Shown here: piece after piece, positions 42,989 to 61,190 of the stretch | How positions within the stretch are numbered: the stretch's first letter is position 1 | Layout: the number at the start of each line of letters is the position of its first letter | Assembly (NCBI GenBank): GCA_902566635.1 | Contig: CACFJP010000006.1 | Span: 1-64,000 of the forward strand | Reading direction: 5' to 3' | Source of the DNA: an uncultured Bacteroidota bacterium | Lineage (GTDB): Bacteria > Bacteroidota > Bacteroidia > Flavobacteriales > Flavobacteriaceae | Length of the DNA stretch: 64,000 nt | Program-made: the position numbers and the translations under genes | The notes under the pieces: model-generated | Seen by the model: only the letters and a program-made list of their open reading frames with translations | Told to the model about the DNA's origin: nothing | Database searches by the model: none

Positions 42989-44077
42989 CTAACGTAATGA
43001 GACCACTGCTCTAAAACCAGTATGCAAACTTCCTGTATCTGGAGTGGTTTTCATACGCATACTGTTTCTGTAGCCACTGCAATAACTCTCGTGACATAAA
43101 AAACTACCCCCTCTGCTTATTCTTTTCAGTGCATAAGGCTCGTTGGAGTCATAGCTTGTCTTGGGTCCTTGTGGGTTGTGGGTTGTTTTACCAGCTAAGG
43201 TTTTATAGTAATCTTCGTGGTATAAATCAGCGCACCATTCCCATACATTACCTGCAATATCATATAAACCATAGTTATTTGGCTGGTAGCTTTGTACAGG
43301 TGCTGTAAAATAATACCCATCTCTCTTATCATTTCTGAAGGGAAAAGCACCTTCCCACGTATTGGCTTTTGGTTTTCCAGAACGTAAGTCTTCATTTCCC
43401 CATGCATATACTGCATCAGTAAGTCCGCCTCTACTGGCATACTCCCACTCGGCTTCCGTTGGTAATCGTTTGCCTACCCAATCGCAATAGGCAACTGCAT
43501 CAAACCAACTGACATGTACTACAGGGTGATTATCTTTCCCTACGATACTGCTGCCTGGGCCTTCAGGCTGCCTCCAATTGGCGCCTTGTCTCCATTGCCA
43601 CCATTGGCTAACATCAAGTAGAGATACAGGCTTATCTGTAGGTACAAAAACCAGTGATGCTGGTGCCAATTGACTCGCATCAGGTTTTGGAGTTCCTGGA
43701 GGTAATTCTTTTTTTATTTCTTCCCAGTCTACGGCTTTTTCTGCAGTAGTCAAATAACCTGTTGCTTCTACAAAAGCAGAAAACTGTGCGTTGGTTACCT
43801 CATGGACATCCATCCAAAAGGAGTCAACAACCACCATATGCTTTGGATACTCATCTCGCCAAGCCTGATCATCATCTCCTCCCATAGAAAACCTGCCACC
43901 TGGAATAAGTACCATCTCCTTTAAATTCACATCAAGTTTCTCATGCGATGTTATGCTAACTGATGAACTAAAACGACTTTGCGTGGGGGTACAACTATGG
44001 CCAGCGGTTTGGGGTGGTTTGGGGGTTTGTTGGCAGCCGATAGCAATTATTAAAATCAATATGTTACGGATATTCAT
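42989..44077 (-). CDS. Formylglycine-generating enzyme (SUMF1/FGE) family, probable lipoprotein, both catalytic cysteines present
   Basis: 'LIIAIGCQQ' lipobox-like; 'VLIPGGRFSMGGDDDQAWRDEYPKH', 'ISRGGSFLCHESYCSGYRNSMRMKTTPDTGSLHTGFRAV' matches the FGE GGSxxCHxSYC active site. Confidence 0.9.
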   Translation of the reverse strand: MNIRNILILIIAIGCQQTPKPPQTAGHSCTPTQSRFSSSVSITSHEKLDVNLKEMVLIPGGRFSMGGDDDQAWRDEYPKHMVVVDSFWMDVHEVTNAQFSAFVEATGYLTTAEKAVDWEEIKKELPPGTPKPDASQLAPASLVFVPTDKPVSLLDVSQWWQWRQGANWRQPEGPGSSIVGKDNHPVVHVSWFDAVAYCDWVGKRLPTEAEWEYASRGGLTDAVYAWGNEDLRSGKPKANTWEGAFPFRNDKRDGYYFTAPVQSYQPNNYGLYDIAGNVWEWCADLYHEDYYKTLAGKTTHNPQGPKTSYDSNEPYALKRISRGGSFLCHESYCSGYRNSMRMKTTPDTGSLHTGFRAVVSLR

Positions 44078-44099: not shown

Positions 44100-45779
44100 T
44101 TAAGCCTTTATAACTTTTTTGGTTTCTTGCATACCATCGGCTTGGAGTGTTACAACATACAAGCCATGAGGTAATGATACCATATCTATAGCAGCATAAC
44201 CTAGTTGCATATCCAATATACCCGATTTTATAAGCCCACCATTTGGGTTGTATATGTCGTATTTTACTTGCGAGTTATTTGTAATTGGGTTAACAAAAAG
44301 CTTGTCATAAACCGGATTGGGATAAGCGGCCCAAAAAGTTTCATTATTGGAAGTATTATTACTTAGAGAATAACATGTTGAATCCACATAATGACTTGGC
44401 TTTATAATATCTTGGATTTTCTTAGCAGAAAAACTTTCATTATTGGTTTGATCGAAAAAAGCATTATCAACGACTGCATTTTCAGCTCCTAAAAAGTCTT
44501 GCATCAGAGTGGCAAATACTTGTCTGTAGTCGTGTTGAACTGTTTTGATCTGCCAATTGTTATTACTTGTGGCTTCAGTCAGATCTACATTTATTCCTGA
44601 AACACCTCCCTGTACTGGTTTCCCAAACACAAACATAGGGGCAATCTCACCATGGTCTGTACCTAAGTTGCCATTTTGCTTTGCTTTGCGACCAAACTCA
44701 GAAAATGTTATGCCAATGATATCATCTCCAATAGAATCTGAGTTTACATCCTTAACAAATGCATCAACAGCTGTGGAGACTTCATTTAGAAGTTCAGAGT
44801 GGCGACCATTAATATCCCCAGAACCCTGATTTTGAGCATTATGAGTATCAAAGCCTCCAATAGTAACCATGTAAACTTTCGTTTCGATCCCACCTCTGAT
44901 TAATCGTGCTACAGTCTTCAACTGATTTGCTAAATCTGTATCCGGATAAGCTGCTAAATTATTAGATCCAGGAGCATTAAATGCATTTTGTATTGACTGA
45001 GAATAAATATTTGCACTTGCATCAGTATCAACTACGTATTGTAATTCAGCTCCATAATGGGAATTATTTGGAATATTTGATGGTGGTTGACCTGAAAGCC
45101 CATTTAAAACTGTGTAAAAATTCTCAGAATCTTGTCCTTCAATATTCATAGCTATACCATCTTCATGTTCAGCATGAAATCCAAGCCAGGTATTGCTTGA
45201 ACCCAACTGAATTCCAAGCGGAAAATTAGATGGTAACAAATTAGAGTAGGCCTCTTCCATAAACCTGCCCATCCAACCACTATCTTTGCCATTATTCCAG
45301 CTATTTCCATCATTTCCAGTAGACCATAAATCAATTGAAGCGAAATGACTTTTATTAGCACTTGGATAGCCAACAGACTGTAAAATCCTCAACATTCCGG
45401 ACTGATAAAGTCCTTTAAATCCTGAATTATGTTGTCCTTCTAATAATGCTGGATGAAACATCAATTGTTGGTTTGATGGCAATAAAGTGTCTACTGCCTG
45501 ATCCGAAAAATTAACATCAGGAATATATATATCTGGGCGTAAAACAGAACTATAATATCCATAATTGTCATAAGGAATCAAAGTGTTAAGGCCATCATTA
45601 CCACCCCTCAGTTCAATCAAAACCAATTTTCGTGATGAAACATCACAATTCATGGTTGAATTAGCTAATTTTAGTGCTGCCCCAACTTCAAATGGTAAAA
45701 GTCCCAAAGCAGATGCTGTAGATGAAAGTTTAACAAATTCTCTTCTTTTCATTTTACATAAGTTGAAATTCTGAAGCAT
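44100..45779 (-). CDS. DUF1501 family protein with T9SS C-terminal sorting domain
   Basis: 'LVLIELRGGNDGLNTLIPYDNYG', 'VTIGGFDTHNAQ', 'FSEFGRKAKQNGNLGTDHGEIAPMFVFG', C-terminal 'AAYPNPVYDKLFVN...HGLYVVTLQADGMQETKKVIKA'. Confidence 0.92.
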   Translation of the reverse strand: MLQNFNLCKMKRREFVKLSSTASALGLLPFEVGAALKLANSTMNCDVSSRKLVLIELRGGNDGLNTLIPYDNYGYYSSVLRPDIYIPDVNFSDQAVDTLLPSNQQLMFHPALLEGQHNSGFKGLYQSGMLRILQSVGYPSANKSHFASIDLWSTGNDGNSWNNGKDSGWMGRFMEEAYSNLLPSNFPLGIQLGSSNTWLGFHAEHEDGIAMNIEGQDSENFYTVLNGLSGQPPSNIPNNSHYGAELQYVVDTDASANIYSQSIQNAFNAPGSNNLAAYPDTDLANQLKTVARLIRGGIETKVYMVTIGGFDTHNAQNQGSGDINGRHSELLNEVSTAVDAFVKDVNSDSIGDDIIGITFSEFGRKAKQNGNLGTDHGEIAPMFVFGKPVQGGVSGINVDLTEATSNNNWQIKTVQHDYRQVFATLMQDFLGAENAVVDNAFFDQTNNESFSAKKIQDIIKPSHYVDSTCYSLSNNTSNNETFWAAYPNPVYDKLFVNPITNNSQVKYDIYNPNGGLIKSGILDMQLGYAAIDMVSLPHGLYVVTLQADGMQETKKVIKA

Positions 45780-47568
45780 TAATCATTTTTGGAATTAATC
45801 CGTCTTGACCAGCTAATCTATTTTTAATTGTTACCAAAGCGTTTTCAGAATCAGTTGAATTTCCATTTTTGTAAGCATTCCATGTATCATACCAAACATA
45901 ATTTGGTTCATTATCATGAATTAAAAACTTTACAAAGTAAGAAACCCTGGAACTATCTATTAATTCACAATAGAGGATTTCTGAAAGTTCTTCAACAATT
46001 TTATTAGCATCAAAAGGGTCTGTTACTATATTTTCAAGAAAATTTACAGGGTCAAAGGAAGTCCAAATTCTCTGATAATATTGTCCGCCGTTTTGTGTAG
46101 TTTGGACTCCAATTATTTTATTAATACCATTACCAAAATTATCATTGTAATCTTGACCTATAAATGAAAGTATTGTATTGTACCTTGCTACAATATTATT
46201 GGGGTTAAACCAAGCTTTATCATAGGCTGGAGGCTGATAATCACCAGGATATCCAGCTACAGTTGCCGGAGCAAATGGAGTCATGCCAGTTGAGGAAAAA
46301 AATGAATTATGCAAAAATGCATTCCAAAAAATGTAATATCTAAAGTTTTCATTTGATGTATTATATCCACTTCCTTGTGGAGTCTGCGTGGTATTGGGAT
46401 CTGGCAAAACTACCCCTAATATTTGAATTAATTCATTTACAAATTGTAAAGGGTTTTTTATTATGGATCCAATGTTTTCATTAGTAGAATCTGTGTCATC
46501 TAAATCAAAAAAATGTTTAGATTTAAGAAGTGTTTTAAGAACCTCAAGGAGGTTATATCCATTTGACTGCAATTGTTGTGCTAATGGGGTGATGATATCG
46601 TCTTCCACTTCTTGATCCCACTCGCTTCGAACAAACATTCTATACAGCTTACGAATATAGTTTTTTGCGGTTTCGATTTTATTAAAAATCATATCAACAA
46701 AATCATCTAATTCGGATTCTATCGAGGATGTTGTATTTCCACCTGATATTGTTTGATTATTAAAAGCATAACTAAACGTTTTGTCTCCTGTATCATGTAC
46801 ATTAGTTTTAATATAACCTTTAGGAATACCTGAGGGATAATGAGGGGTTTTTACTGTATCAGCATCATAATTATTTCTATTGTTCTTGAACTTAATCCCC
46901 GAAAAAACTCTTGCAGCTTGAACTACATCATGTTCAGTGTAATTTGTATAATCACCATCACTTACCTGTTCCCCTTTGCCAATAGTAAACAACTCTAAAA
47001 ATTCCCTTGCATAATTTTCATTAGGGTTGTTTTTATTATTATCAGAATTATCTAAATAGTAAAGCATAGAATTGTCAAAGGTGATTTTTCTGGCAAGGTC
47101 TTTTATACTTTTATCAGAATAAAATTGAAGTAGGTTGACATAATCAAAAAAATGAGCTGATTTTCCAGAACCATCATCTTTCGATATTGTAAATGTTGTA
47201 AATAAAAACCAAGTTAACTTATCAAGTAATGTGTTTTGGCTGATGCAATTATACCACCACCAGCCTGCAACTAAACTCCTTTTTCGTACTTGACCACATG
47301 GGTATGCACTATTGGACCAATTTCCTGAATTTAACCAAAATCCGTCTTGTGCACCAGGACACTGAGAGAAATTACCATTTGTTACAGGGTCGTTAGGCCA
47401 TAGCATTGTATGAGTGTGAGGAGATGATATTATGGTTAAAATTTCATCAGCCGTTTTTCCAACATATTGATCTAAGTCTGACTTTGAATAATGGAAACAT
47501 GCTCTACGCAATAAATGTTTTGTTAGCCTTAAGTCTAGATGTTGTGTATGTTCATTCAATGACGCCAT
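45754..47568 (-). CDS. DUF1800 family protein
   Basis: 'LTKHLLRRACFHYSKSDLDQYVG', 'NENYAREFLELFTIGKG', 'YTEHDVVQAARVFSG', 'FAPATVAGYPGDYQPP'. Confidence 0.88.
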   Translation of the reverse strand: MASLNEHTQHLDLRLTKHLLRRACFHYSKSDLDQYVGKTADEILTIISSPHTHTMLWPNDPVTNGNFSQCPGAQDGFWLNSGNWSNSAYPCGQVRKRSLVAGWWWYNCISQNTLLDKLTWFLFTTFTISKDDGSGKSAHFFDYVNLLQFYSDKSIKDLARKITFDNSMLYYLDNSDNNKNNPNENYAREFLELFTIGKGEQVSDGDYTNYTEHDVVQAARVFSGIKFKNNRNNYDADTVKTPHYPSGIPKGYIKTNVHDTGDKTFSYAFNNQTISGGNTTSSIESELDDFVDMIFNKIETAKNYIRKLYRMFVRSEWDQEVEDDIITPLAQQLQSNGYNLLEVLKTLLKSKHFFDLDDTDSTNENIGSIIKNPLQFVNELIQILGVVLPDPNTTQTPQGSGYNTSNENFRYYIFWNAFLHNSFFSSTGMTPFAPATVAGYPGDYQPPAYDKAWFNPNNIVARYNTILSFIGQDYNDNFGNGINKIIGVQTTQNGGQYYQRIWTSFDPVNFLENIVTDPFDANKIVEELSEILYCELIDSSRVSYFVKFLIHDNEPNYVWYDTWNAYKNGNSTDSENALVTIKNRLAGQDGLIPKMINASEFQLM

Positions 47569-47583
47569 ATGTCTTCAAAGATA

Positions 47584-49983
47584 TCACTTTTTAATAATAC
47601 TTATTACACGTGAGTTTTGTTTTTTAAATTTTAAGAAATAAACTCCATTTGCAAAAGAGGATAGGTCAATTGTGTTACCATAACCTCTTGAAATAGTTAT
47701 TCCATTAACATCAAAGACTCTATATTCTACATTATTTTCAGAAGATAACTTTACGATTCCATTTGTTGGGTTGGGGTAAACGAAAATTTCTTCTTTGAAA
47801 ACCGTTTTATTGGTTAGGGTAAGTGCATTAACAATATCGAAATTTTCTTCTGGAACCCAGTCGATTCCAGGTGTCCAAACATTACTTTGGTCGATTGCGC
47901 CAATATCAGGTAAGTTACCTACACCCGTTTGTGGCACCAATTCATTAAGAGTTTTAAGTTCCGTAGGAGAGATATATACTGAGTTTGTTGGGGCTGAACC
48001 CTTGTCAATTAAAACATCGCTACTTGGCACATAATTAGCAATGGTTTTATTATTTGAATTATTATATGTTATGATGGAAGTTACATCAGATTTATAAGAA
48101 ATACCTGTTCGAGTTGCAGTGAGTTGGTCAATATTATCCATTGATATGCCACTACCTATTCCAGAAAAAATGTCCCCATCACTTCCAACGCACTCACGCC
48201 AACTATCATTACTGCCATTCTGATCGCTATCAAACATGATATAGCCCTTAGAGCCAATTGGCATTGGAGCATTATTAGACAACTGAAATTGTGTACTGCT
48301 ACGATGTGAGCCTATTCGTTCGGCAAGGTTGTTATAGAGCCACGTGTGATTATTTGAGCAATCTTCAGCTAAAATGATTATGTCATTTCGGTTATTGATA
48401 GTGTTTATAACAGTGTTGTTGGCAATGATTTGGTTGTTTCCCTTGATCATTAGTCCCATGGTATTATCTGCAATGTTGTGATGCATAATTCCAAAGCTTC
48501 CTGCTTCTTCAGCATTACCTCCAGGAGCGTCATATCGAAAAGCATATTTTTCGGTATCATAGACAAAATTATGATGAACAACAGAATTTTTGACTGTAAT
48601 TTTTGTTCCTTGAAAAACAGCCCCATCAGATTGTGCAAGACCTGTATTTGAAACTATATTGTAAGAAAATATAGATGCTTCTCCTGGCCATACTGTTGCA
48701 GATGCTCCTGTATTGTAAATTTCATTATTAGAAAATTCATTTTTGTAACCAACCACATTGATAGTAACCATTAAGCCGTCTAGCTGTGTTGCTGACCAAT
48801 CTATATTTTTAAAATATGAGTTGAGCACCTTGTTGTGATCTCCCTTTATAATTAAACCTTCGCCCTCAGAATTGATAAATAAGCAACCTTCAATGGTGCT
48901 GTTATGAACTTCTTTTGTTCCCGATGAGCCCAATATTGTTGGAGCTGCACCTTGAAGTTCACCAAGCATTCTTCTTGAATAAGAAGGATAATAGAAATTG
49001 CAAGCTGAAATGTTCAAATAATTAGAGTTATCTGCTTTAAATGTAGTTGCAAAAAATGTAAGTCCTTCAATAGTAATATGGCTACTGTTGTCGATAAGTA
49101 TTGAGTAGTCACGAACTTTTCCACGGACGGAAGTATTGTTTAAATCGACACCATTTTGAGGTAATACGTAAAGCATTTCATTGTCTTGATCTAAAAACCA
49201 TTCATTTTGAACATCTATGAGTTCTTTTTTGCCTTCGAAAAAGAAATAATGATGTTTGGTTTTGAATGAGTTACCAAAATTTCCTTCATATTCAATAAGA
49301 TCGTTTCCATTTTGAATGGTATGATGATCGGTGATTCGTTTGGTAAAGGTTTTAAAGGACCCAACATTTAAAATTCCGATGCTATTTGTAAGATCAATTG
49401 TGCCAGGATCTTTTTTACTCTCGTCGATATACAGCTGACCATCTTGACTTGTGTTTTCATGTCCTTCTGCCCAACTGTGTTTATCAAAAATATAAAGAGT
49501 TTTGCCATTTTCATCCTCAGCATCCATATCAAACTGTGCATTTGGCCATCTGGCCATAACCATTTGTTCGTTACCAACAAAAAGCTGAGTAATTTGGTCA
49601 TCAATGCCATTCACTACTTTAATGGATGAATTTGCATTGTCATCATTCCATTGGCCTTCTATAGCAATGGTTCCATCAATTATTACAGTCTCCCCATCAA
49701 AACTTTTAATCAATGTGGGTGATGAATTCGAAGATGTAAAGTTATCAATTGAGATTTGTTCGTGATATACACCTGCTCTAATGATGACTGTGTCGCCCGC
49801 ATCTATTTCGCTTATGGCTTTTCCGATTGTTTCGAACGGGGAATCAATAGAGCCATTTCCAGTGTTATCATTTCCAACCGAATTGGAAACATAATAAGTG
49901 GTCTGCCCAAGAGTATTAATGTGAAAAATAAAAAACAGAGTTATAAACAGCCTAATCCTATATTTTTTTAAAATCTCAATCAT
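47584..49983 (-). CDS. Secreted right-handed parallel beta-helix protein with T9SS sorting domain (putative carbohydrate-active enzyme)
   Basis: 'TYYVSNSVGNDNTGNGSIDSPFETIGKAISEIDAGDTVIIRAGVYHEQI', 'LFVGNEQMVMARWPN', repeated NxI/NxV coils, C-terminal 'VYPNPTNGIVKLSSENNVEYRVFDVNG...'. Confidence 0.82.
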   Translation of the reverse strand: MIEILKKYRIRLFITLFFIFHINTLGQTTYYVSNSVGNDNTGNGSIDSPFETIGKAISEIDAGDTVIIRAGVYHEQISIDNFTSSNSSPTLIKSFDGETVIIDGTIAIEGQWNDDNANSSIKVVNGIDDQITQLFVGNEQMVMARWPNAQFDMDAEDENGKTLYIFDKHSWAEGHENTSQDGQLYIDESKKDPGTIDLTNSIGILNVGSFKTFTKRITDHHTIQNGNDLIEYEGNFGNSFKTKHHYFFFEGKKELIDVQNEWFLDQDNEMLYVLPQNGVDLNNTSVRGKVRDYSILIDNSSHITIEGLTFFATTFKADNSNYLNISACNFYYPSYSRRMLGELQGAAPTILGSSGTKEVHNSTIEGCLFINSEGEGLIIKGDHNKVLNSYFKNIDWSATQLDGLMVTINVVGYKNEFSNNEIYNTGASATVWPGEASIFSYNIVSNTGLAQSDGAVFQGTKITVKNSVVHHNFVYDTEKYAFRYDAPGGNAEEAGSFGIMHHNIADNTMGLMIKGNNQIIANNTVINTINNRNDIIILAEDCSNNHTWLYNNLAERIGSHRSSTQFQLSNNAPMPIGSKGYIMFDSDQNGSNDSWRECVGSDGDIFSGIGSGISMDNIDQLTATRTGISYKSDVTSIITYNNSNNKTIANYVPSSDVLIDKGSAPTNSVYISPTELKTLNELVPQTGVGNLPDIGAIDQSNVWTPGIDWVPEENFDIVNALTLTNKTVFKEEIFVYPNPTNGIVKLSSENNVEYRVFDVNGITISRGYGNTIDLSSFANGVYFLKFKKQNSRVISIIKK

Positions 49984-49991
49984 ATCAATTT

Positions 49992-50348
49992 CTATTCTAG
50001 TTTAAACACTTGTTCCAATTCCATCCACTTTTCGCCATCTTTTGCCCACGGAAGAGCTTGTTGGTAATTCCACATAAGTTTTTCCCATTTCTGAACTTTT
50101 GGATTAACAGCATCCATTTTAGCTTTTTTGACTTTATTGAAAGTCTCATCAACTTCCATAATCATAAACAATCTATTACCAACAAGGTAGATCTCCATAT
50201 CTACAATTCCAGCCACTTTAATGCTCTTAGTTATTTCAGGCCATGCGTTACCTTTTGCATGATATTCTTTGTATTCTTCAATTAACTTATTGTCATCTTT
50301 AAGATCACACGAATAGCAAAATCGTTTTGTTTTCATATTTATCGACAA
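49992..50348 (-). CDS. L-rhamnose/L-fucose mutarotase family (DUF718)
   Basis: 'RFCYSCDLKDDNKLIEEYKEYHAKGNAWPEITKSIKVAGIVDMEIYLVGNRLFMIMEVDETF'. Confidence 0.88.
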   Translation of the reverse strand: MSINMKTKRFCYSCDLKDDNKLIEEYKEYHAKGNAWPEITKSIKVAGIVDMEIYLVGNRLFMIMEVDETFNKVKKAKMDAVNPKVQKWEKLMWNYQQALPWAKDGEKWMELEQVFKLE

Positions 50349-51671
50349 TTAAGCCTTACTCCTTTTAGTTGTAATGTAGCCATACGTTGCTACAACCGCT
50401 AAGCAGATCAATGGTAAAATAAACGAGAACTTAACCTCTGGAATAAATCCTATGATATTCAAATCAGCAAATCCATCTCCTCCCCAATCTAGTATCCATC
50501 CTTGCGCTACAGGCATTAATGCGCCACCAACGATTGCCATAACTAATCCAGCAGAACCAATTTTAGATTCATCTCCCATACCTTCAAGGGCAATGCCGTA
50601 AATAGTTGGGAACATTATTGACATAAAAATGGATATTGAAACTAATGAAATTAGACCTAACATTCCTGGAAGCAAAATAGCTCCTGCACTACAAATTACA
50701 CCTCCTATCCCAAAAAGCATTAGCATTTTTGAAGGATTTATGTTTTTCATCAATGCGGTACCTATCCAACGACCAATTAGGAATGATATCATCGCCGCAA
50801 TATTATAATTTGTAGCAGTAAGATTAGAAACTGAACTTTCATTTAGGTTATCTACATATTGAAAAATATAGGTCCAACACATAATCTGTGCACCTACATA
50901 AAAGGCTTGTGTTATTACTCCAAAAAGATAGTTACGATTCGCAAACAGCTTGTTAAATGATTCATATACTGACATTTTATCTTCAGCTGCAGTTTTTGGC
51001 ATCTTTGTAAATAAAATTATGAGCATAATTAATAAGACCAAAATTCCTAGCCCGATGTAAGGAATACTAATTATCCCCAAATCATTTTCTCTAATAGCTG
51101 CCAGTTCTAGTCCAGATAAAGCATTATAGGCTTCAGTTGTATAGTCGTCAGACCTTAAAGCGCCTATGACAAATACCTGCGCAATAATCATTCCCGTTAA
51201 AGACCCAATTGGATTGAACGCCTGAGCTAAGTTTAATCTTCTTGTAGAGGTTTCTTTATCTCCCAATGATAAAATTAATGGATTTGAAGTGGTTTCTAAA
51301 AAAGCTAATCCACATGTAATTACCCAAAGTGATATTAAAAAGAAAGCGAATTCTTCGAAAGCTGCCGCAGGATAAAACAAAAAAGAACCAATGGCATAAA
51401 ATATCAACCCTAAAATAATTCCAGATTTATAGCTATATTTTCTTATAAACAAAGCTGCTGGTAGAGCCATAAAGAAGTATCCAAAATAAAATGCAAACTG
51501 AACTAAAGATGCCTGTACGTTTGAAAGCTCTGGCATTACCTTTTTAAACGCAGAAACCATTGGATTTGTTAAATCATTGGCAATTCCCCACAAAGCAAAT
51601 AGGGAGGTAATAATTATAAATGGAAAAAGTAACTCTTTTCTAACGACTGGGATTTTTGCTATTTTATTCAT
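50349..51671 (-). CDS. fucP: L-fucose:H+ symporter permease
   Basis: 'PFIIITSLFALWGIANDLTNPMVSAFKKVMPELSNVQASLVQFAFYFGYFFMALPAALFIRKYSYKSGIILGL'. Confidence 0.93.
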   Translation of the reverse strand: MNKIAKIPVVRKELLFPFIIITSLFALWGIANDLTNPMVSAFKKVMPELSNVQASLVQFAFYFGYFFMALPAALFIRKYSYKSGIILGLIFYAIGSFLFYPAAAFEEFAFFLISLWVITCGLAFLETTSNPLILSLGDKETSTRRLNLAQAFNPIGSLTGMIIAQVFVIGALRSDDYTTEAYNALSGLELAAIRENDLGIISIPYIGLGILVLLIMLIILFTKMPKTAAEDKMSVYESFNKLFANRNYLFGVITQAFYVGAQIMCWTYIFQYVDNLNESSVSNLTATNYNIAAMISFLIGRWIGTALMKNINPSKMLMLFGIGGVICSAGAILLPGMLGLISLVSISIFMSIMFPTIYGIALEGMGDESKIGSAGLVMAIVGGALMPVAQGWILDWGGDGFADLNIIGFIPEVKFSFILPLICLAVVATYGYITTKRSKA

Positions 51672-51755
51672 TTTATACCAATATCAATATTCGCAAATTA
51701 GTCAAACAACCAGATGATAATGAACTCATTTGTAACATATAGTACAACAAAAGTT

Positions 51756-52547
51756 CTACTCTGTCAAAAGAGATCTATCTAAATGTACATAACCACCATC
51801 ACAAAACAAAAACTGTCCAGTTGTATGTGAGGACTTATTTGAAATTGTGAATAATGCAGTGTGTGCAATTTCATCTGTTGTAGTCATTCTATTTTCTAAT
51901 GGAATTTTATTTATGATAGATTTTAATTTCTCTTCGCCGTTCTCCAAAGTTTTAATCCAAGCAGCATAAGCGGGGGTAAAACTTTCGGCAATGATTATTG
52001 CATTAACTCGAATTCCGGCTTTGATTAAATCTACAGCCCATTCTCTAGTTAATCCTAAAACACCCCCTTTAGACGCGGCATATCCCGAAGTTCCTCCCTG
52101 ACCTGTAAGACCAACTTTTGAACCAATATTTAAAATGTTTCCTTTTGAAGATTTTAAATAAGGTAGCGCATGTTTTACGACTAAAAAATAACTCACTAAA
52201 TTAAGTTTCAACGACCACATAAAATCTTCGTATGAAGCATTTAAACCAACGCCGTCATTAACACCAACATTGTTGATTACCACATCAATTCTTCCATACT
52301 TTTTAGCAATAGTATTCACTGCATTTTCTATCTGGTCTGGATCTGTCACATCAGTTTTACAAAATGTAGCATTAATTCCTTTTTTCTGAATTTCTTCAAC
52401 ATATTCAAAACCTCTATCATTTCTGTCAATAATTGCAGGAATAGCTCCTTCATTAACCAAATGTCCTAACATCGTTTCGCCTATACTTCCCTTAATTCCG
52501 GCAGCACCAGAAATTACTACTACTTTATCTTTTAATTCTAAATCCAT
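51756..52547 (-). CDS. SDR family oxidoreductase, probable L-fucose dehydrogenase
   Basis: 'VVVISGAAGIKGSIG', 'VINNVGVNDG', 'SGYAASKGGVLGLTREWAVDL', 'TGQFLFCDGGYVHLDRSL'; next to a lactonase and fucP. Confidence 0.8.
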   Translation of the reverse strand: MDLELKDKVVVISGAAGIKGSIGETMLGHLVNEGAIPAIIDRNDRGFEYVEEIQKKGINATFCKTDVTDPDQIENAVNTIAKKYGRIDVVINNVGVNDGVGLNASYEDFMWSLKLNLVSYFLVVKHALPYLKSSKGNILNIGSKVGLTGQGGTSGYAASKGGVLGLTREWAVDLIKAGIRVNAIIIAESFTPAYAAWIKTLENGEEKLKSIINKIPLENRMTTTDEIAHTALFTISNKSSHTTGQFLFCDGGYVHLDRSLLTE

Positions 52548-52556
52548 CGTAAATAT

Positions 52557-53387
52557 TTATTTTAAGTTGTAAAATTTAGCGGCATTTCCACCCATAATAG
52601 CATCTTGCTGTTCTTGACTAAGGTCTGAAATAAAATCTGTAACTAAAGCCTTTACGGTAGAATAGTTGCCGGCAACCAAACATACAGGCCAATCTGAACC
52701 ATACATAACTCTACCTGCTCCAAAAGATTCTAATACCAACTTCATGTAAGGATGAACTAGTTCTGGGGTCCAGGTCTTATAATCTGCTTCTGTGATCATA
52801 CCGGAAATTTTGCAGTATACTTTTTGGTTTTTAGCAATTTCTCGCATCATAACCGCCCAACCTTCAAAAAAGCCATCTTTTATGTAAGGTTTTGCTATAT
52901 GATCTATCACAAATTTTTGGTTAGGAAACTTCTTTACTAATTCTAAAGCTGCTCCTAGTTGATGTGGAAAGATTAGAATATCGTAGCACAAATCATACTT
53001 ACCAAGAAGCTCTATTCCATTCAAAAATTCTGGACGTAGCATAAAATTATGATCTTGCTCTTCCTGAACTACATGCCTAAAACCTTTAACTACATCATAC
53101 TTTTTATACTTTAATAAATCTTCTTCGATAGATTCAGATCGAAGATCTACCCAACCTACAACACCTTTAATAAAGTTGTTATTTTCTGCAAGAGAAATTA
53201 AAAAATCGGTTTCTTCCGTAGTTTGATCTGCTTGAACAGCTACACAAGCATCTACTCCATTTTCATCAAATACTTTTTGTAAATCATCACTTAGAAAATC
53301 GCGTCTGATTACAGACATTTCATCATCTATCCACGAGTGTTTTTCAGCTTCATAATTCCAAAAATGTTGATGTGAATCTATAATCAT
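52557..53387 (-). CDS. Amidohydrolase family, probable L-fuconolactonase
   Basis: 'IIDSHQHFWNYEAEKHSWIDDEMSVIRRDFL', 'VVGWVDLRSE', 'VIDHIAKPYI', 'MYGSDWPVC'. Confidence 0.88.
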   Translation of the reverse strand: MIIDSHQHFWNYEAEKHSWIDDEMSVIRRDFLSDDLQKVFDENGVDACVAVQADQTTEETDFLISLAENNNFIKGVVGWVDLRSESIEEDLLKYKKYDVVKGFRHVVQEEQDHNFMLRPEFLNGIELLGKYDLCYDILIFPHQLGAALELVKKFPNQKFVIDHIAKPYIKDGFFEGWAVMMREIAKNQKVYCKISGMITEADYKTWTPELVHPYMKLVLESFGAGRVMYGSDWPVCLVAGNYSTVKALVTDFISDLSQEQQDAIMGGNAAKFYNLK

Positions 53388-53432
53388 ATCCTTTTTTTAT
53401 ATTTAAATTGTATTTTTTTAGGCTTTAATGTT

Positions 53433-54872
53433 TTAACACTTTATAAAATCATTCAATGCTTCTTTCATACCATTCTTAGTAATTGCTTTTAAGCTTGTAG
53501 TAACTTCCTCAAGCAAACCACTGAATTGAGTTAAATCAATTCCCCAGAATTCTAAATTCTGCAAAGTTGCTTTTGTAACAGCTTTTACATCTGATGCTCT
53601 CCATTGAGCAGCAAAGAAATCTAATACAGACTGATCGTCTTTTAGAGGGATATTTACTCCATTTCTGTCTCCATCATAGAAAGCAATTAAGGCAGCTAAT
53701 GAGAACAATAAGCGCTTTGGAAATGCATTTTCTCTTTTGATATATTCTAAAACGGAGGGCAAAACACGTGTTTTATATTTAGATATTGAGTTTAAAGAAA
53801 TGCTAAGCAAATCATGTTCTAAATATGGATTTCTAAATCTTTCTAAGACAGCATTTGAAAATTGAATTAACTCTTGCTCTGGCAAATCAAGAGTAGGGCA
53901 TATTTCTTCAAAAATAGCATCCTTTATAAACTTACCAACAACTTCATCTTCTAGGGATTCACGAACTTTATCAATTCCATATAAATAGCTTACAGGAACC
54001 AAACTTGTATGGGCTCCATTTAAAATACGAACCTTACGGGTTCTGTAAGGCTCCATATTATTTGTGAAGACTATGTTTAAACCACAGGGTTTAGCAGGAA
54101 TTTCATTTTTCACTGAGTCTGGTGCCTCAATCACCCACAAGTGGAATTGCTCTCCCTCAACAACTAAATTATCTATGTAACCCAATTCTTTTGTAATAGT
54201 ATCCATTTTATCTCTAGGGTATCCAGGTACAATACGATCTACGAGTGTATTACAAAAAATATTATTATTATTTATCCAAGAAATAAAGTCTTTACCTAGA
54301 TTCCAATCAATGGCATATTGAAGTACAATCTTCTTTAAATTGTCTCCGTTTCTATCAATCAATTCACAAGGCATTACAATCATTCCTTTTTCTGAAGCTC
54401 CGTAAAAAAAATGGAATCTTTTGAACAACAATGCTGTTAATTTTCCAGGAAAGCTTGCTTGAGGAGCATCTTCTAGTTTGTCTTTAGGGTTATAACAAAT
54501 ACCAGCTTCAGTTGTATTTGAAATCACAAATCTGAGATTCGGGTTCTCAGCATTTGCTAAATACGCATCATAATCTTCATAGGGATTGATTCCCCTTTTT
54601 ATACAATCAACAACTTTTCGTTCGCTTAAAACTTTGCCATTTTTAATTCCGTTCATGTATAAGGTATATAAACCATCTTGATCATTAAGTGTTTTTATTA
54701 AGCCATTAGCTATTGGCTGAACAACCACTGTACCAGCATCAAAATTGGCATGATGGTTCATTTCATGTATCATCCAATTGGCAAAAGCTCTTAAAAAATT
54801 ACCTTCACCAAACTGCAAAATTCTTTCAGTATATGAATCAGCCTGGAATGTGCTTCTATTAAGGGCGTTCAT
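53433..54872 (-). CDS. uxaB: Tagaturonate reductase (UxaB-like; mannitol dehydrogenase superfamily)
   Basis: 'RILQFGEGNFLRAFANWMIHEMN', 'FVISNTTEAGICY', 'KVRILNGAHTSLVPVSYL'. Confidence 0.9.
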   Translation of the reverse strand: MNALNRSTFQADSYTERILQFGEGNFLRAFANWMIHEMNHHANFDAGTVVVQPIANGLIKTLNDQDGLYTLYMNGIKNGKVLSERKVVDCIKRGINPYEDYDAYLANAENPNLRFVISNTTEAGICYNPKDKLEDAPQASFPGKLTALLFKRFHFFYGASEKGMIVMPCELIDRNGDNLKKIVLQYAIDWNLGKDFISWINNNNIFCNTLVDRIVPGYPRDKMDTITKELGYIDNLVVEGEQFHLWVIEAPDSVKNEIPAKPCGLNIVFTNNMEPYRTRKVRILNGAHTSLVPVSYLYGIDKVRESLEDEVVGKFIKDAIFEEICPTLDLPEQELIQFSNAVLERFRNPYLEHDLLSISLNSISKYKTRVLPSVLEYIKRENAFPKRLLFSLAALIAFYDGDRNGVNIPLKDDQSVLDFFAAQWRASDVKAVTKATLQNLEFWGIDLTQFSGLLEEVTTSLKAITKNGMKEALNDFIKC

Positions 54873-54899
54873 ATTTATGCATTTTTCTTCAATTTTCGT

Positions 54900-56552
54900 C
54901 TACAAAGACACTCCTCTTTTCCAAGGAATAAAATCGTTATTCCCTTGTTTCATTGCCTTTGATGAAACCTTTCCACTAGCCACAGCTATGATATACTCCA
55001 AAATCTTTTCTCCCATACTTTCAATGGTTTCTTCGCCACTTATCACTGTTCCTGCATTAATGTCAATTATGTCATTCATGCGATTGTAGAGATCTGTATT
55101 ACTTGACAATTTTAGTACTGGGGTAATAGGATTTCCCGTCGGAGTTCCCAATCCGGTAGTAAACACGGTAATATTGCAACCAGAACCAGCAAGTCCTGTT
55201 GTACTTTCTACATCATTACCTGGCGTACACAATAAATTCAATCCTGGTTTTTTAACTTGTTCTGTGTAATCCAGAACATCAACAATTGGAGAAGTTCCAC
55301 CTTTTTTAGCGGCTCCTGCCGATTTCATAGCATCAGTAATTAAACCATCTTTAATATTTCCAGGAGAAGGATTGCTTTCAAAACCAGAACCAACTGCTAC
55401 AGCTGCTGCTGAATAGGCACGCATAATTTTGTAAAACTTTCGAGCGGATAGCTTGGTTTCACATCTGTTAATAATTTCTTGTTCAACACCATTTAACTCT
55501 GGGAATTCAGATAATACAGGCGAACCACCTAATGCAACCAACAGATCAGAGCAATAACCTAGAGCTGGATTTGCAGAAATACCTGAAAACCCATCCGATC
55601 CTCCACATTCCAAGCCTAATACCAGTTTGCCTAAAGGCGCTGGTTTTCTTACTATCTTATTGGCTTCAACCAATCCTAAAAAAGTGCGCTTTACTGCTTC
55701 TTCTATGAGCTTTCTTTCACTATCCATCTTTTGTTGCTCTAAGATGTAAACGGGTTTCTTAAAATTTTGATCAAAATCGTTCAATGATTTTTGCATCATT
55801 TCAACTTGAGCATTCTGACAACCCAAACTTAAAATTGTAGCTCCTGCAACATTAGGATTTGTGATATATCCAGCTAATAACTGGCATAACACTTCAGCAT
55901 CTTTGCGAGTACCTCCACATCCACCGTCGTGTTTTAAAAACTTAATACCATCTACATTTGGAAATAGTCTATTTTTAAAGATTTCTTCTGCCGTATTTAT
56001 TATTGGTGTATTTAAAATTTCATCTAAAGTAGCACCTGCTTTATACTGCTCAATCAAGGCATCTGTGTTAACTGCAAAGTCCTTTGCGGTTTGATACCCT
56101 AACTTTTCAGAGAGTGCAGCTTCCATAACGTCTAAATTCCTGTTCTCACAGAAAGTCAATGGAATTACCAGCCAAAAGTTAGCTGTTCCTACTTTGCCAT
56201 CTGATCTATGATAGCCATCAAATGTACGTCCATCAAATTTTGAAATATCCGGGGTAACCCAATTGTAATTTTTATTTTTTTCTGTATACTCAGCCGATGA
56301 ATGCTTTACATTAAAAGTAGTAATTGCACTGCCTGCTTTAATTGGCTGGATAGCCTTTCCAATTAGCAATCCATACATAAATATTTCATCATCTACTGCA
56401 AAATCGTTTAAAGCGAATTTATGCTTCTGCTTAATGTCCTCTTTCAAGACAACTTTTTGCTTACCTATTTTTGTAAAAAGCCCTTTTTCTAGATTGGTTA
56501 TTGCAACAATTACATTGTCTCTTGGGTCTATTTGTAAATAGTTTTTCTGCAT
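54900..56552 (-). CDS. uxaA: Altronate dehydratase family protein (UxaA-like, SAF + catalytic domains)
   Basis: 'TFDGYHRSDGKVGTANFWLVIPLTFCENRN', 'LKHDGGCGG', 'LGLECGGSDGFSGISANPALGYCSDLL', 'GSGCNITVFTTGLGTPTGNPITPVLKLSSN'. Confidence 0.92.
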   Translation of the reverse strand: MQKNYLQIDPRDNVIVAITNLEKGLFTKIGKQKVVLKEDIKQKHKFALNDFAVDDEIFMYGLLIGKAIQPIKAGSAITTFNVKHSSAEYTEKNKNYNWVTPDISKFDGRTFDGYHRSDGKVGTANFWLVIPLTFCENRNLDVMEAALSEKLGYQTAKDFAVNTDALIEQYKAGATLDEILNTPIINTAEEIFKNRLFPNVDGIKFLKHDGGCGGTRKDAEVLCQLLAGYITNPNVAGATILSLGCQNAQVEMMQKSLNDFDQNFKKPVYILEQQKMDSERKLIEEAVKRTFLGLVEANKIVRKPAPLGKLVLGLECGGSDGFSGISANPALGYCSDLLVALGGSPVLSEFPELNGVEQEIINRCETKLSARKFYKIMRAYSAAAVAVGSGFESNPSPGNIKDGLITDAMKSAGAAKKGGTSPIVDVLDYTEQVKKPGLNLLCTPGNDVESTTGLAGSGCNITVFTTGLGTPTGNPITPVLKLSSNTDLYNRMNDIIDINAGTVISGEETIESMGEKILEYIIAVASGKVSSKAMKQGNNDFIPWKRGVSL

Positions 56553-56553
56553 C

Positions 56554-56769
56554 TTATCTCCTGAAAGGTTTAATAATATCTTGTACTTTCCTTACATACA
56601 TTTTCAATTCAGCAAAATCTTCATCTATTCCGAAATTAGCTAATGAAACTGCTACATTAGATTCGCCATAACTACATACCAAATCAAAATTTGTGGCCTG
56701 TGAAAATATTAAAAGCCCTATGGGCGCTAACCGTAGCATAATGTCTCCAATTGTCACAACTCTACCAAT
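56554..56769 (-). pseudogene. N-terminal remnant of a PfkB-family sugar kinase (2-keto-3-deoxygluconate kinase-like)
   Basis: Reading '(RV)VTIGDIMLRLAPIGLLIFSQATNFDLVCSYGESNVAVSLANFGIDEDF' matches a KdgK N-terminus, but stops about 67 aa in after unrelated residues; no ATG start at the expected place. Confidence 0.75.
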
Positions 56770-56790
56770 CTAATTTTTATTTATTTAAAT

Positions 56791-57804
56791 TTATGAATTA
56801 AAATTTACAGTTGCTTTCATCACACCTGATTCTGGATCCAACCAACTGTCAAAATCCTCTATCATTTCTGTAAGCGAAACGTTATGAGTGATAAATGACT
56901 CTGTTGGAAATTGATTTATTACACTAATTACGTACTCAAAATCCTCAATATTAGCATTTCGGCTACATATTAAAGTCATTTCTTTAGCATGCACTTTTGG
57001 ATGCATATAAGTTAACTCTCCCTTATACAAACCAACTAATACAAATCTTCCTCCATGCGACATATAATCCGGACATGACTCTAAAGCATATTTATTTCCT
57101 GAAGCGTCGAAAACAGCATCACACAAGTCTCCATTAGTAATTTCTATTACTTGTTTAATAGTACTGTCTCCAGCTTTCAAAATATAATCTACTCCAATTT
57201 GATCTTTAGCAAATTTCAAACGTTTTTCGTTCGTATCTATTGCAATGACTTTAGCTCCGGAAATTTGTGCTAATTTAATTATGCCAATTCCAATTGGTCC
57301 ACAACCAACTACTGCTATAGTTTCTCCAGCTAAAATATTAGATCTCCTCAGGGCATGAGCACCAATTGCTAATGGTTCTACTATTGCCATTTGGTCGTTT
57401 GACAAGTGGTTTGCTGACAACAAAATATCTACTGGAACAGAAATTTGCTCCTGCATTCCACCATCATCATGAACACCTAAAACGGAAATATTTGTGCAAC
57501 AGTTTGTTTTACCTTTTCTACAAGCAATACACTGACCACAACTTATATAAGGCACAACTATAACCTTATCTCCTTTCTTGATACCTTTTTCATTTTCGCC
57601 AATTTCTAAAACTTCTGAGGCTAACTCATGCCCTAAAATTCTCGGATAGGTAAAAAATGCCTGATTCCCGGCATAAGCATGTAAATCGGTACCACAAATT
57701 CCAACCATATTAATTTTTAATAAGGCTTCATTTTCTTTTCTAACTGGCGCTTCTTTCTCTTTTAATAGAAACTCTCCAGGTTTTTCACAAACTATATATT
57801 TCAT
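56791..57804 (-). CDS. Zinc-dependent medium-chain alcohol/sugar dehydrogenase
   Basis: 'GICGTDLHAYAGNQAFFTYPRILGHELASEVLEIG', 'CIACRKGKTNCCTNISVLGVHDDGG', 'VVGCGPIGIGIIKLAQ'. Confidence 0.9.
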   Translation of the reverse strand: MKYIVCEKPGEFLLKEKEAPVRKENEALLKINMVGICGTDLHAYAGNQAFFTYPRILGHELASEVLEIGENEKGIKKGDKVIVVPYISCGQCIACRKGKTNCCTNISVLGVHDDGGMQEQISVPVDILLSANHLSNDQMAIVEPLAIGAHALRRSNILAGETIAVVGCGPIGIGIIKLAQISGAKVIAIDTNEKRLKFAKDQIGVDYILKAGDSTIKQVIEITNGDLCDAVFDASGNKYALESCPDYMSHGGRFVLVGLYKGELTYMHPKVHAKEMTLICSRNANIEDFEYVISVINQFPTESFITHNVSLTEMIEDFDSWLDPESGVMKATVNFNS

Positions 57805-57828
57805 TGCTAAAAATTGCTATGTATTTTT

Positions 57829-59451
57829 TTAATATACAAGTCTGCCATCTATTTCAATTCTAAACGCATTGGCAATATCGTTAATTCCTTGTGTAGGAAA
57901 TTCAATAATCAAACCTTCTTTAGTTTGATTCCAATGAACAACTTCATTTGTGGAAATCAGTGAAATTTTTGAAATACCACCTGTAGCTATTTTTTCATCC
58001 TTGTTTAGACATTTAATGGTATAAGTTCCTGATTCTGGATTTCCTAAAACAATAGCAAACAACTTGGTATTGTCTTTACTTCTTGTAAACCTAACATCAG
58101 CTGCTCCTAATTCTCTAAAAGTCCAACGATAGGATTTTTTACGTTCAACATATTTAAGCATTTCGGTGGTACCCTCAGATGAAACCTTCCATTTTCTAGT
58201 TCCATATATAGCTTCTCCATTTGTATTCAACCAAGTACCAATTCCCTTCATTATTTCAATTTCTTGAGGGTCGATAGAACCATCGCCTATTGGAGTTAAA
58301 GACATCAACATTATTCCACCTCTGCTGACCATATCAATTAGACTTCGTATATGATAAGGCGCTTTATCTTTATAATTCTTATTATTAACATATGACCACG
58401 GATAACTAATTGCCCTGTCCGATAGCCAATACCCTTCTGGTTTCTCTTCCATATCACGACAATTCTCGTAGCAACGCAAGCCAAAACCTAAAGGGAAATT
58501 CCAAACTTTACTGCTTGGTAATTTGTTACAAACCACTACTTCATCACCATCTATTCCTTTTAAATTGTAATAGTCTTGAAATATATTTACTATGGTATCC
58601 TGTGGAACTTCGTCCTTTTTTATTGAGCTAGACAAACCATCAAACCAAAGTACATCTGGGCGATATTTGTTAATTACCTCACGAACTTTATTAGCCCATT
58701 CAGCAGCAAAATTTTCTTTTGATTCAGTTTGAGGATTACGATAAATCCAATCATTTTCCTCATCATAAATATCCCAAATTTTACGCTCTTCTGCTGTATG
58801 ATCTTTACTAAACATATAACCATAACTTCTTGCCATATGGAATGTTGCCAATAACTTCATATCTGTTTTTCTGACCTCCATAGCAATTTCACCATAAATA
58901 TCTCTTTTTGGGCCCGCATCCATTGAATCCCATTTGGTGTATTTAGAGTCCCATAAACAAAAACCATCATGATGCGCTAGACAAATTCCACCAAATTTAG
59001 CACCTCCATTTTTCATTATTGACACCCATTCTTGTGCATCAAACTTTGGGGCATTAAAAATTGGTAAAAAATCTTTGTATCCAAAATCTTCAATTGGACC
59101 ATACTTTTTTTCATGATACTTTTTTACTCCCTTTCTATCCACTCCATTAGGGGAATACAACTCCTTTACATAATCAGGTCCACCATGTGCTGGTACAGAA
59201 TAAATTCCCCAATGCGTGTACATTCCAAATTTGGCATCAATTATCCATTCAGGAATTGACTCTTTAATCAATTCATTCCATAGTGGTGATTTTGGTATAT
59301 TCCAGTCTTTGCCATTTGTTTTTTCAATTTCTTGAGCAACTACAGAAGAATCATTGAGCGTCAGGAATGCTAGTAATACAACTGAACTAAGGGTTCTAAT
59401 ACTCATTTGATTTAGTTTAAATTCTATATTTAAATTTTCAATAATTTTCAA
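57829..59451 (-). CDS. GH29 alpha-L-fucosidase
   Basis: 'WIIDAKFGMYTHWGIYSVPAHGG', 'GICLAHHDGFCLWDSKYTKWDSMDAGPKRDIYGE', 'DVLWFDG', 'LIDMVSRGGIMLMSLTPIGDGSI'. Confidence 0.93.
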   Translation of the reverse strand: MKIIENLNIEFKLNQMSIRTLSSVVLLAFLTLNDSSVVAQEIEKTNGKDWNIPKSPLWNELIKESIPEWIIDAKFGMYTHWGIYSVPAHGGPDYVKELYSPNGVDRKGVKKYHEKKYGPIEDFGYKDFLPIFNAPKFDAQEWVSIMKNGGAKFGGICLAHHDGFCLWDSKYTKWDSMDAGPKRDIYGEIAMEVRKTDMKLLATFHMARSYGYMFSKDHTAEERKIWDIYDEENDWIYRNPQTESKENFAAEWANKVREVINKYRPDVLWFDGLSSSIKKDEVPQDTIVNIFQDYYNLKGIDGDEVVVCNKLPSSKVWNFPLGFGLRCYENCRDMEEKPEGYWLSDRAISYPWSYVNNKNYKDKAPYHIRSLIDMVSRGGIMLMSLTPIGDGSIDPQEIEIMKGIGTWLNTNGEAIYGTRKWKVSSEGTTEMLKYVERKKSYRWTFRELGAADVRFTRSKDNTKLFAIVLGNPESGTYTIKCLNKDEKIATGGISKISLISTNEVVHWNQTKEGLIIEFPTQGINDIANAFRIEIDGRLVY

Positions 59452-59573: not shown

Positions 59574-61190
59574 TTGATGAATTCTAAAAGAACTTTAAAA
59601 ATGTCTACATATAAATATAATCTTTTATTGACAATCGTTTTTACAACATCGATTTTCAGTCAGCAAACTTATCAACCAAATTGGGAATCTATAGATAAAA
59701 GAGAAAATCCACAATGGTTTAGCAATGCCAAATTTGGAATATTTATTCACTGGGGATTATACTCCGTCCCTGGTTTCACTAATAAAGGTACTTATGCCGA
59801 GTGGTATTGGAATGCTTTAAATGAAGACCCCAATACAGCTAAAAAAAGTCGGAGAGAAAGACATTTTGCGATAACAAAATTCCACAATGAAAATTATGGG
59901 AGTGATTATCCTTATTCAAATTTCAAAGATGGGTTTAAGGCAGAATTATTCAACCCAGACGAATGGGCAAATATTTTTAAACGCTCAGGTGCAAAATATG
60001 TAGTATTGACTTCAAAGCATCATGATGGGTATTGTTTATTTCCAAGTACTGAGGCCAGTGAAAGCTATGGAATGGCTTGGAATTCAGTAGAATCTGGACC
60101 AAAAAGAGATTTGGTGGGCGACTTAACATCTGCAGTGAAAAATGCGGGGTTAAAAATGGGTTTGTATTATTCTATTTGGGATTGGTACAATCCATATTGG
60201 CCCAAAGAGCAACAGTCGATTTTGAGTAAAGGCAGCATGGCTGTTAACTTTAAAGATGGTAATTCAAAAAATAACAAATTTTCTAATGAAGAAATCCAAA
60301 CTGCTCAAAAGGGTTTAGATAAATATATCGATAAGGTAATGCTGCCTCAGTTAAAGCAAATTGTGACCAATTATGAACCAGCATTGTTATTTTCAGATGG
60401 AGATTGGTGGATGGATTACAAAAAATGGAGAACTTTACCGTTTTTATCTTGGGCATTGAATAATGCACCCAACAAAGAAGAGTTGGTTTTTAATGACAGA
60501 TGGGGAAAAGTAAGAGGTAAACATGGTGGGTATTACACCACAGAATATGGCTCTGGTTTTGCTGATGGTACTACACCCTGGGAAGAAAACAGAGGAATCG
60601 GTATGTCTTTTGGCATTAATCGTATTGAAAATATCGATGATTATCGAACTGGTAAGGAACTTATATTTATGCTGGTCGATATTGTGAGTAGAGGTGGTAA
60701 TTTGTTGTTGAACATTGGTCCAAATGCCGATGGAACCATTCCGGTAATTATGCAACAACGTTTAATTGAAATTGGCAACTGGCTTTCTGTTTATGGTGAA
60801 GGAATTTATGACACTAAACAATGGATAAAGGACGCTCAATGGAGCTCAGGAATAATTCCATCTTTTACGAAAAATGATTTTCATGCTGGGTTTCCTATTT
60901 ATGAAATGACAATTAATCCAAAGAAAGGAAATGCTGTTAAAGAATTTTGGTTTACTAAGAAGGGAAACAATTTGTACGCTTTTGCTCCCGAATGGCCAAA
61001 AAACATAAATATTTTAATTGAAGATGTTAAAACAACAATTAAGACAGAAGTAAAACTAATGGGTTGTGAAAAATCATTACCATACACTGAAACAAACAAC
61101 GGTATCGTAATAGATATTTCATCAATTAACATTCATGATTTAAAATCCCAATATGTGTTTGGGTTTAAAGTATCAAATATCACAGAATAA
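59574..61190 (+). CDS. GH29 alpha-L-fucosidase
   Basis: 'WFSNAKFGIFIHWGLYSVPGFTNKGTYAEWYW', 'YVVLTSKHHDGYCLFPS', 'LLFSDGDWWMDYKKW', 'DIVSRGGNLLLNIGPNADGTIP'. Start may be the Met at 59601. Confidence 0.95.
   Translation: MMNSKRTLKMSTYKYNLLLTIVFTTSIFSQQTYQPNWESIDKRENPQWFSNAKFGIFIHWGLYSVPGFTNKGTYAEWYWNALNEDPNTAKKSRRERHFAITKFHNENYGSDYPYSNFKDGFKAELFNPDEWANIFKRSGAKYVVLTSKHHDGYCLFPSTEASESYGMAWNSVESGPKRDLVGDLTSAVKNAGLKMGLYYSIWDWYNPYWPKEQQSILSKGSMAVNFKDGNSKNNKFSNEEIQTAQKGLDKYIDKVMLPQLKQIVTNYEPALLFSDGDWWMDYKKWRTLPFLSWALNNAPNKEELVFNDRWGKVRGKHGGYYTTEYGSGFADGTTPWEENRGIGMSFGINRIENIDDYRTGKELIFMLVDIVSRGGNLLLNIGPNADGTIPVIMQQRLIEIGNWLSVYGEGIYDTKQWIKDAQWSSGIIPSFTKNDFHAGFPIYEMTINPKKGNAVKEFWFTKKGNNLYAFAPEWPKNINILIEDVKTTIKTEVKLMGCEKSLPYTETNNGIVIDISSINIHDLKSQYVFGFKVSNITE

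Follow-up and report, generated by a model that had tools for sequence, protein, structure and literature searches.

We found that a 64,000-nucleotide stretch of DNA from an uncultured member of the Flavobacteriaceae (hereafter the window) encodes a formylglycine-generating enzyme (FGE), P0001, a member of a known family with an unexpected predicted location. A catalytic, envelope-anchored enzyme was favored by its sequence and predicted fold as well as by genome content and comparative data, and we consider it quite probable that P0001 is a copper- and O2-dependent FGE that leaves the cytoplasm through Sec, carries a lipid anchor at Cys15, faces the periplasm and matures exported sulfatases. 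A preliminary description of this DNA had proposed a catalytic, envelope-anchored FGE for exported sulfatases, and these lines of evidence supported that proposal as a prediction.

P0001 is a full-length FGE with both active-site cysteines

The FGE gene occupies positions 42989-44077 on the minus strand and, from an ATG start, encodes 362 amino acids. The open reading frame coincided exactly with that in the preliminary description, which had given no strand and had assigned it to a probable lipoprotein FGE with a complete cysteine pair, and both residues, Cys328 and Cys333, were present. Domain and structure-database matches identified the product. Its catalytic domain (residues 52-358; 43004..43924, minus strand) scored 277.5 bits with the Pfam family FGE-sulfatase (PF03781; cut-off 23.3) and covered profile positions 2-254 of 255. 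P0001 contains RGGSFLCHESYCSGYRNSMR, which holds Cys328 and Cys333, as well as PDTGSLHTGFRAV, and in an alignment of 62 relatives the two cysteines and the surrounding active-site loop GGSFLCHESYC (43079..43111, minus strand) were invariant. Upon comparison with solved structures, the top match was the T. curvata FGE (6s07; E 9e-84), the human and S. coelicolor FGEs gave 1e-71 to 1e-75 (human about 5e-75), and human SUMF2 and PorK gave 1e-45 and about 1e-28, respectively. The AF2 model (mean pLDDT 90.6) agreed with this: its first 26 PDB matches were all human, S. coelicolor or T. curvata FGE, with TM-scores by target length of up to 0.92, while PorK ranked 30th at 0.48. Among the NCBIfam models, GldK scored 153.9 bits, below its 350-bit cut-off, and SenA, EgtB and PvdO scored 105.5, 104.2 and 92.5 bits against equivalog cut-offs of 360-500; with GldJ included, P0001 stayed below the cut-offs of all five equivalog models. 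Judged by its sequence, P0001 is a full-length FGE with both predicted copper-binding cysteines.

The genome encodes many exported Cys-type sulfatases

The FGE gene closes a minus-strand run that extends from 59451 down to 42989. A DUF1501 gene (44100..45779, minus strand), whose product carries a T9SS sorting tail, lies 22 bp upstream and is overlapped by a DUF1800 gene (45754..47568, minus strand), this DUF1501-DUF1800 pair (44100-47568) sitting directly upstream of the FGE gene. The rest of the run (47584..59451, minus strand) encodes a T9SS-tail protein, a mutarotase, an MFS transporter, an SDR, an amidohydrolase, a mannitol dehydrogenase, a member of the altronate/galactarate dehydratase family, a zinc alcohol dehydrogenase and a GH29 fucosidase, and a divergent GH29 alpha-L-fucosidase gene follows on the plus strand (59574..61190). 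The fucose cluster that had been reported beside the FGE was thus confirmed, with two GH29 fucosidases inside the window and a third just beyond it, together with the transporter, the mutarotase and the sugar-acid genes; GldL/GldM-like genes were not found among these DUF1501, DUF1800 and fucose neighbors. This neighborhood fits the use of a fucose-rich sulfated glycan. A link of the FGE to sulfated fucan, as suggested earlier, may be drawn from these fucose and fucosidase neighbors.

No sulfatase lies within the 64-kb window, as had been stated before, and a check downstream revealed seven in one run (contig positions 66785-78062), beginning 2.8 kb past the window end. Sulfatases, whose absence from the genome the preliminary description had named as evidence against its reading, were plentiful: PF00884 gave 28 matches in 27 genes of the 1.375-Mb assembly, and all 27 sulfatases were Cys-type, with the motif C-x-(P/A)-x-R, and bore an N-terminal hydrophobic export signal, six of them being lipoprotein-like. 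The other PF03781 genes of the genome were only GldK, which lies on contig C3 adjoining GldL/GldM-like genes, and GldJ. Searches of the assembled genome, to which statements of absence refer, detected neither an anSME (TIGR03942; E 0.001) nor a SPASM-domain enzyme (E 0.01); as the assembly is 63.6% complete, another maturase could be missing from it.

P0001 begins with a predicted lipoprotein signal

Export calls were made from hydropathy and a lipobox pattern. P0001 starts with a putative lipoprotein signal peptide (residues 1-15, MNIRNILILIIAIGC; 44033..44077, minus strand), whose lipobox AIGC (44033-44044), already noted as lipobox-like in the preliminary description, ends at Cys15, after which a 40-residue linker leads to the domain. 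The hydrophobic stretch and Cys15 were position-conserved in relatives, with a cysteine at this position in 48 of the 62 aligned proteins and the lipobox retained in near relatives. Upon comparing the N-terminal 54 codons with those of the nearest relative, we obtained a dN of 0.37 and a dS of 2.3, with synonymous changes otherwise saturated, indicating that this segment is very probably translated and under purifying selection. An internal ATG is present at codon 55, and a start there, which would leave the catalytic domain intact, could yield a cytosolic form. An acidic stretch after the lipobox cysteine is known from surface lipoproteins of Bacteroidota. No such stretch was found downstream of Cys15 in P0001, so that the enzyme most simply would face the periplasm, lipidation, location and orientation all being predicted from the sequence.

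FGEs with predicted export signals are widespread in Bacteroidota

Distinct Bacteroidota relatives of P0001 almost all shared these features: the cysteine pair was present in 90 of 91, the sole exception being cut by a contig end, a strongly hydrophobic N-terminal segment in 87, and a lipobox, by a crude pattern, in at least 73. Signal and lipobox were retained across the Bacteroidota FGEs despite a variable linker sequence. By these sequence features, an exported FGE with the cysteine pair is the usual catalytic FGE form in Bacteroidota and is not special to the window organism. By the same features, exported FGEs with the pair are present in Planctomycetota, Verrucomicrobiota and Calditrichota too, where many relatives begin with a signal or membrane segment. 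Cytosolic FGEs outside Bacteroidota lack a hydrophobic N-terminus. Exported Cys-pair FGEs often adjoin exported sulfatases. Adjacent FGE/sulfatase pairs were, in the raw count, exported/exported in 40 cases, cytosolic/cytosolic in 3, cytosolic/exported in 3 and exported/cytosolic in 1; with three borderline signals (L092, L108, L120) re-read by eye, the counts became 42, 4, 1 and 0. In Paracoccus versutus, a cytosolic-looking FGE adjoins an exported sulfatase. Export was clustered in a quick 156-FGE tree, where this label required 3 changes compared to 17.3 in shuffles. The match of compartments between FGE and sulfatase is largely phylogenetic, with few independent transitions behind it, so that its p-value calls for caution.

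In a 2015 paper, the FGE of prokaryotes was described as residing in the cytosol (PMC4505483), and in the open-access literature we found no paper that names a catalytic FGE of bacteria as a lipoprotein or as periplasmic, or that names the exported clade. Sulfatases have been matured by co-expressing the FGE of F. agariphila (PMC8511951), showing that catalytic FGEs of Bacteroidota are already in use.

FGE and sulfatases co-occur in the family, with exceptions

We surveyed 301 genomes of the window's family, 138 with and 163 without a P0001-type FGE. None of the 138 FGE-positive genomes was free of sulfatases, compared to 60 of the 163 FGE-negative ones, and at least three sulfatase matches, counted up to a maximum of seven in each genome, were present in 122 and 51 genomes of the two groups, respectively. 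At E <= 1e-60, no anSME was detected in any of the 301.

There were, however, 36 FGE-negative genomes with at least seven sulfatase matches (G002, G017, G032, G085, G171, G182, G215, G221, G239, G248 and 26 more; sulfatase loci L214-L232). In eleven of them the sulfatase active sites were read, and every one contained a cysteine. No catalytic FGE was detected in the 36, where the PF03781 genes that were read proved to be GldK, GldJ or proteins without the cysteine pair; SPASM-domain enzymes scored above the cut-off in two (G240, G250), with marginal matches in three more. Hence, the family seems to have a further route by which Cys-type sulfatases can mature, which tempers the claim of FGE as the only route in the window organism. 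A third system of sulfatase maturation in prokaryotes has been put forward for E. coli (Benjdia 2007, according to PMC6315715 and PMC6189696), and the 36 genomes are natural places to seek it.

Among sulfatase-rich genomes without a catalytic FGE, we also observed FGE-like lipoproteins (L184, L185 and L186) that score 154-164 bits with P0001 and have F or Y at the position of the first catalytic cysteine (GGSFMFDQALE and similar). One genome of the same genus as the window organism (G194, 78% complete) had three sulfatase matches and no P0001-type FGE at E 1e-40.

An N-terminal cysteine arm resembles the sulfatase motif

Within the otherwise variable linker lies a conserved island, the N-terminal arm SCTPTQSRF (residues 28-36; 43970..43996, minus strand), which resembles the sulfatase motif CxPxR and which in relatives of P0001 takes the form [C/S]C-x-x-[ILV]-P-[SAN]-R-F. 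The pattern C-x(1-5)-P-x-R occurred in 36 of 91 linkers compared to 0.8 in shuffles (maximum 4 in 500), an excess that is inflated by relatedness, and SCTPTQSRF itself matches only a looser form of it. Related CC..R arms were found in cytosolic FGEs of Bacillota, Actinomycetota, Alphaproteobacteria and a haloarchaeon, three cytosolic arms being the exact FGE substrate consensus (CSPSR, CAPHR and CSPSR); arm-bearing loci, cytosolic and exported, include L279, L280, L281, L285, L286, L264, L269, L274 and L120. Such an arm was present in 9 of 19 cytosolic FGEs, namely in all nine with an HxSYC/HxSWC loop and in none of the ten others, and the two groups may represent two old subfamilies. Specificity of the arm to exported FGEs was ruled out by these nine and by the finding that more than half of the exported FGEs lack it, from which it also follows that the arm is not essential to export. 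In Mucilaginibacter-type FGEs (L047, L055, L059, L158 and similar), a near-fixed CCESNIPxRF arm sits in a variable linker. The AF2 model of P0001, where residues 21-40 have a pLDDT of 52-54, showed no static docking of the arm, and a model of a Bacillus FGE (mean pLDDT 65.9) was too poor for use.

Discussion

In the mechanism that we propose, Sec would export the FGE, and a lipid at Cys15 would anchor it with its domain facing the periplasm. There it would act on sulfatases that leave the Sec channel still unfolded, oxidizing the cysteine of their C-x-(P/A)-x-R motif prior to folding or to transfer to the outer membrane or the cell surface; human FGE works in much the same way in the endoplasmic reticulum (ER). 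Copper loading, catalysis, lipidation, orientation and timing are what we infer for P0001 in this scheme.

Several other explanations need to be weighed against it. P0001 could be a non-catalytic structural lipoprotein with an FGE fold, as Bacteroidota do use such proteins structurally, PorK (without both cysteines; PMC12421860), GldK and GldJ among them, and some relatives carry FGE-fold lipoproteins that lack the pair (L184-L186). This we regard as highly improbable, given the invariant cysteines and loop, the far better scores with FGE than with PorK in both sequence and fold, the separate GldK and GldJ of the genome, and the tracking of sulfatases by FGE across the 301 genomes; a GldK-like role was rejected on the cysteine pair, the score and synteny.

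A catalytic P0001 might also act in the cytoplasm, either through a start at the codon-55 ATG or by meeting its substrates before its own export. The retention of signal and lipobox next to a varying linker, the purifying selection on the N-terminal codons and the observation that cytosolic FGEs outside Bacteroidota simply do without a hydrophobic N-terminus render cytoplasmic action rather unlikely, even though the domain is complete from Met55, Paracoccus versutus pairs a cytosolic-looking FGE with an exported sulfatase, and the prokaryotic enzyme has been placed in the cytosol (PMC4505483). Finally, the FGE may be active and serve only some of the sulfatases, with another system maturing most of them. 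The 36 sulfatase-rich relatives, without a detected catalytic FGE and nearly all without a SPASM radical-SAM enzyme, and the third system proposed for E. coli are in line with such a division, which appears unlikely in view of the strong co-occurrence of FGE and sulfatases.

The N-terminal arm led us to a more tentative extension of the envelope-anchored FGE model. Each FGE turnover ends in a sulfenate whose reduction takes two electrons, and the physiological reductant is not known (PMC12123546). The N-terminal extension of human FGE, with Cys50 and Cys52, is reported to be required for biological activity and ER retention, yet was dispensable in vitro in one study (PMC4505483). Arm variants that resemble the substrate motif are SCTPTQSRF in P0001, CCxxxIPxRF in relatives, and CSPSR or CAPHR in some cytosolic FGEs. 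We can imagine, as a speculative possibility, that envelope FGEs form a widespread clade and give bacteria an ER-like route for activating sulfatases outside the cytoplasm. In this picture, the substrate-mimicking cysteine arm of many FGEs would be a tethered thiol that docks only briefly at the copper site, reducing the post-turnover sulfenate or helping copper loading, and would so supply the physiological reductant. A tethered thiol may be one reading of the arm, with copper loading and a pseudosubstrate as others.

If the FGE form that predominates in sulfatase-rich Bacteroidota does act in the envelope, formylglycine would be made where O2 and copper are available and sulfatases are still unfolded, in parallel to the eukaryotic ER. 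This would account for the ability of aerobic degraders of algal polysaccharides to run exported Cys-type sulfatases by the dozen in the absence of anSME, and it would matter for the expression of such sulfatases. It would also raise the question of how an oxidizing compartment supplies reductant for each turnover, for which the substrate-like arm is a candidate.

Among known systems, the FGEs of T. curvata and S. coelicolor (6s07, 6xtq, 6muj, 2q17) share the domain, fold and loop of P0001 at 41-47% identity in the fold comparison, the sequence GGSFLCHESYC being identical in T. curvata; prokaryotic FGEs of this type are described as cytosolic, whereas P0001 opens with a predicted lipoprotein signal followed by a 40-residue linker. 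PorK/GldK and GldJ, lipoproteins of the T9SS and gliding machinery, have the FGE fold and come from the same phylum, yet unlike P0001 they lack both cysteines and carry large insertions. The radical-SAM enzyme anSME yields the same product, formylglycine, and is an unrelated cytosolic enzyme. Human FGE (SUMF1; 1y1e, 1z70, 5ssz) has a catalytic cysteine pair and a cysteine-bearing N-terminal extension, as P0001 does, and is exported and matures exported sulfatases (PMC4505483), as P0001 is predicted to do, but it is ER-luminal and retained through ERp44 rather than lipid-anchored.
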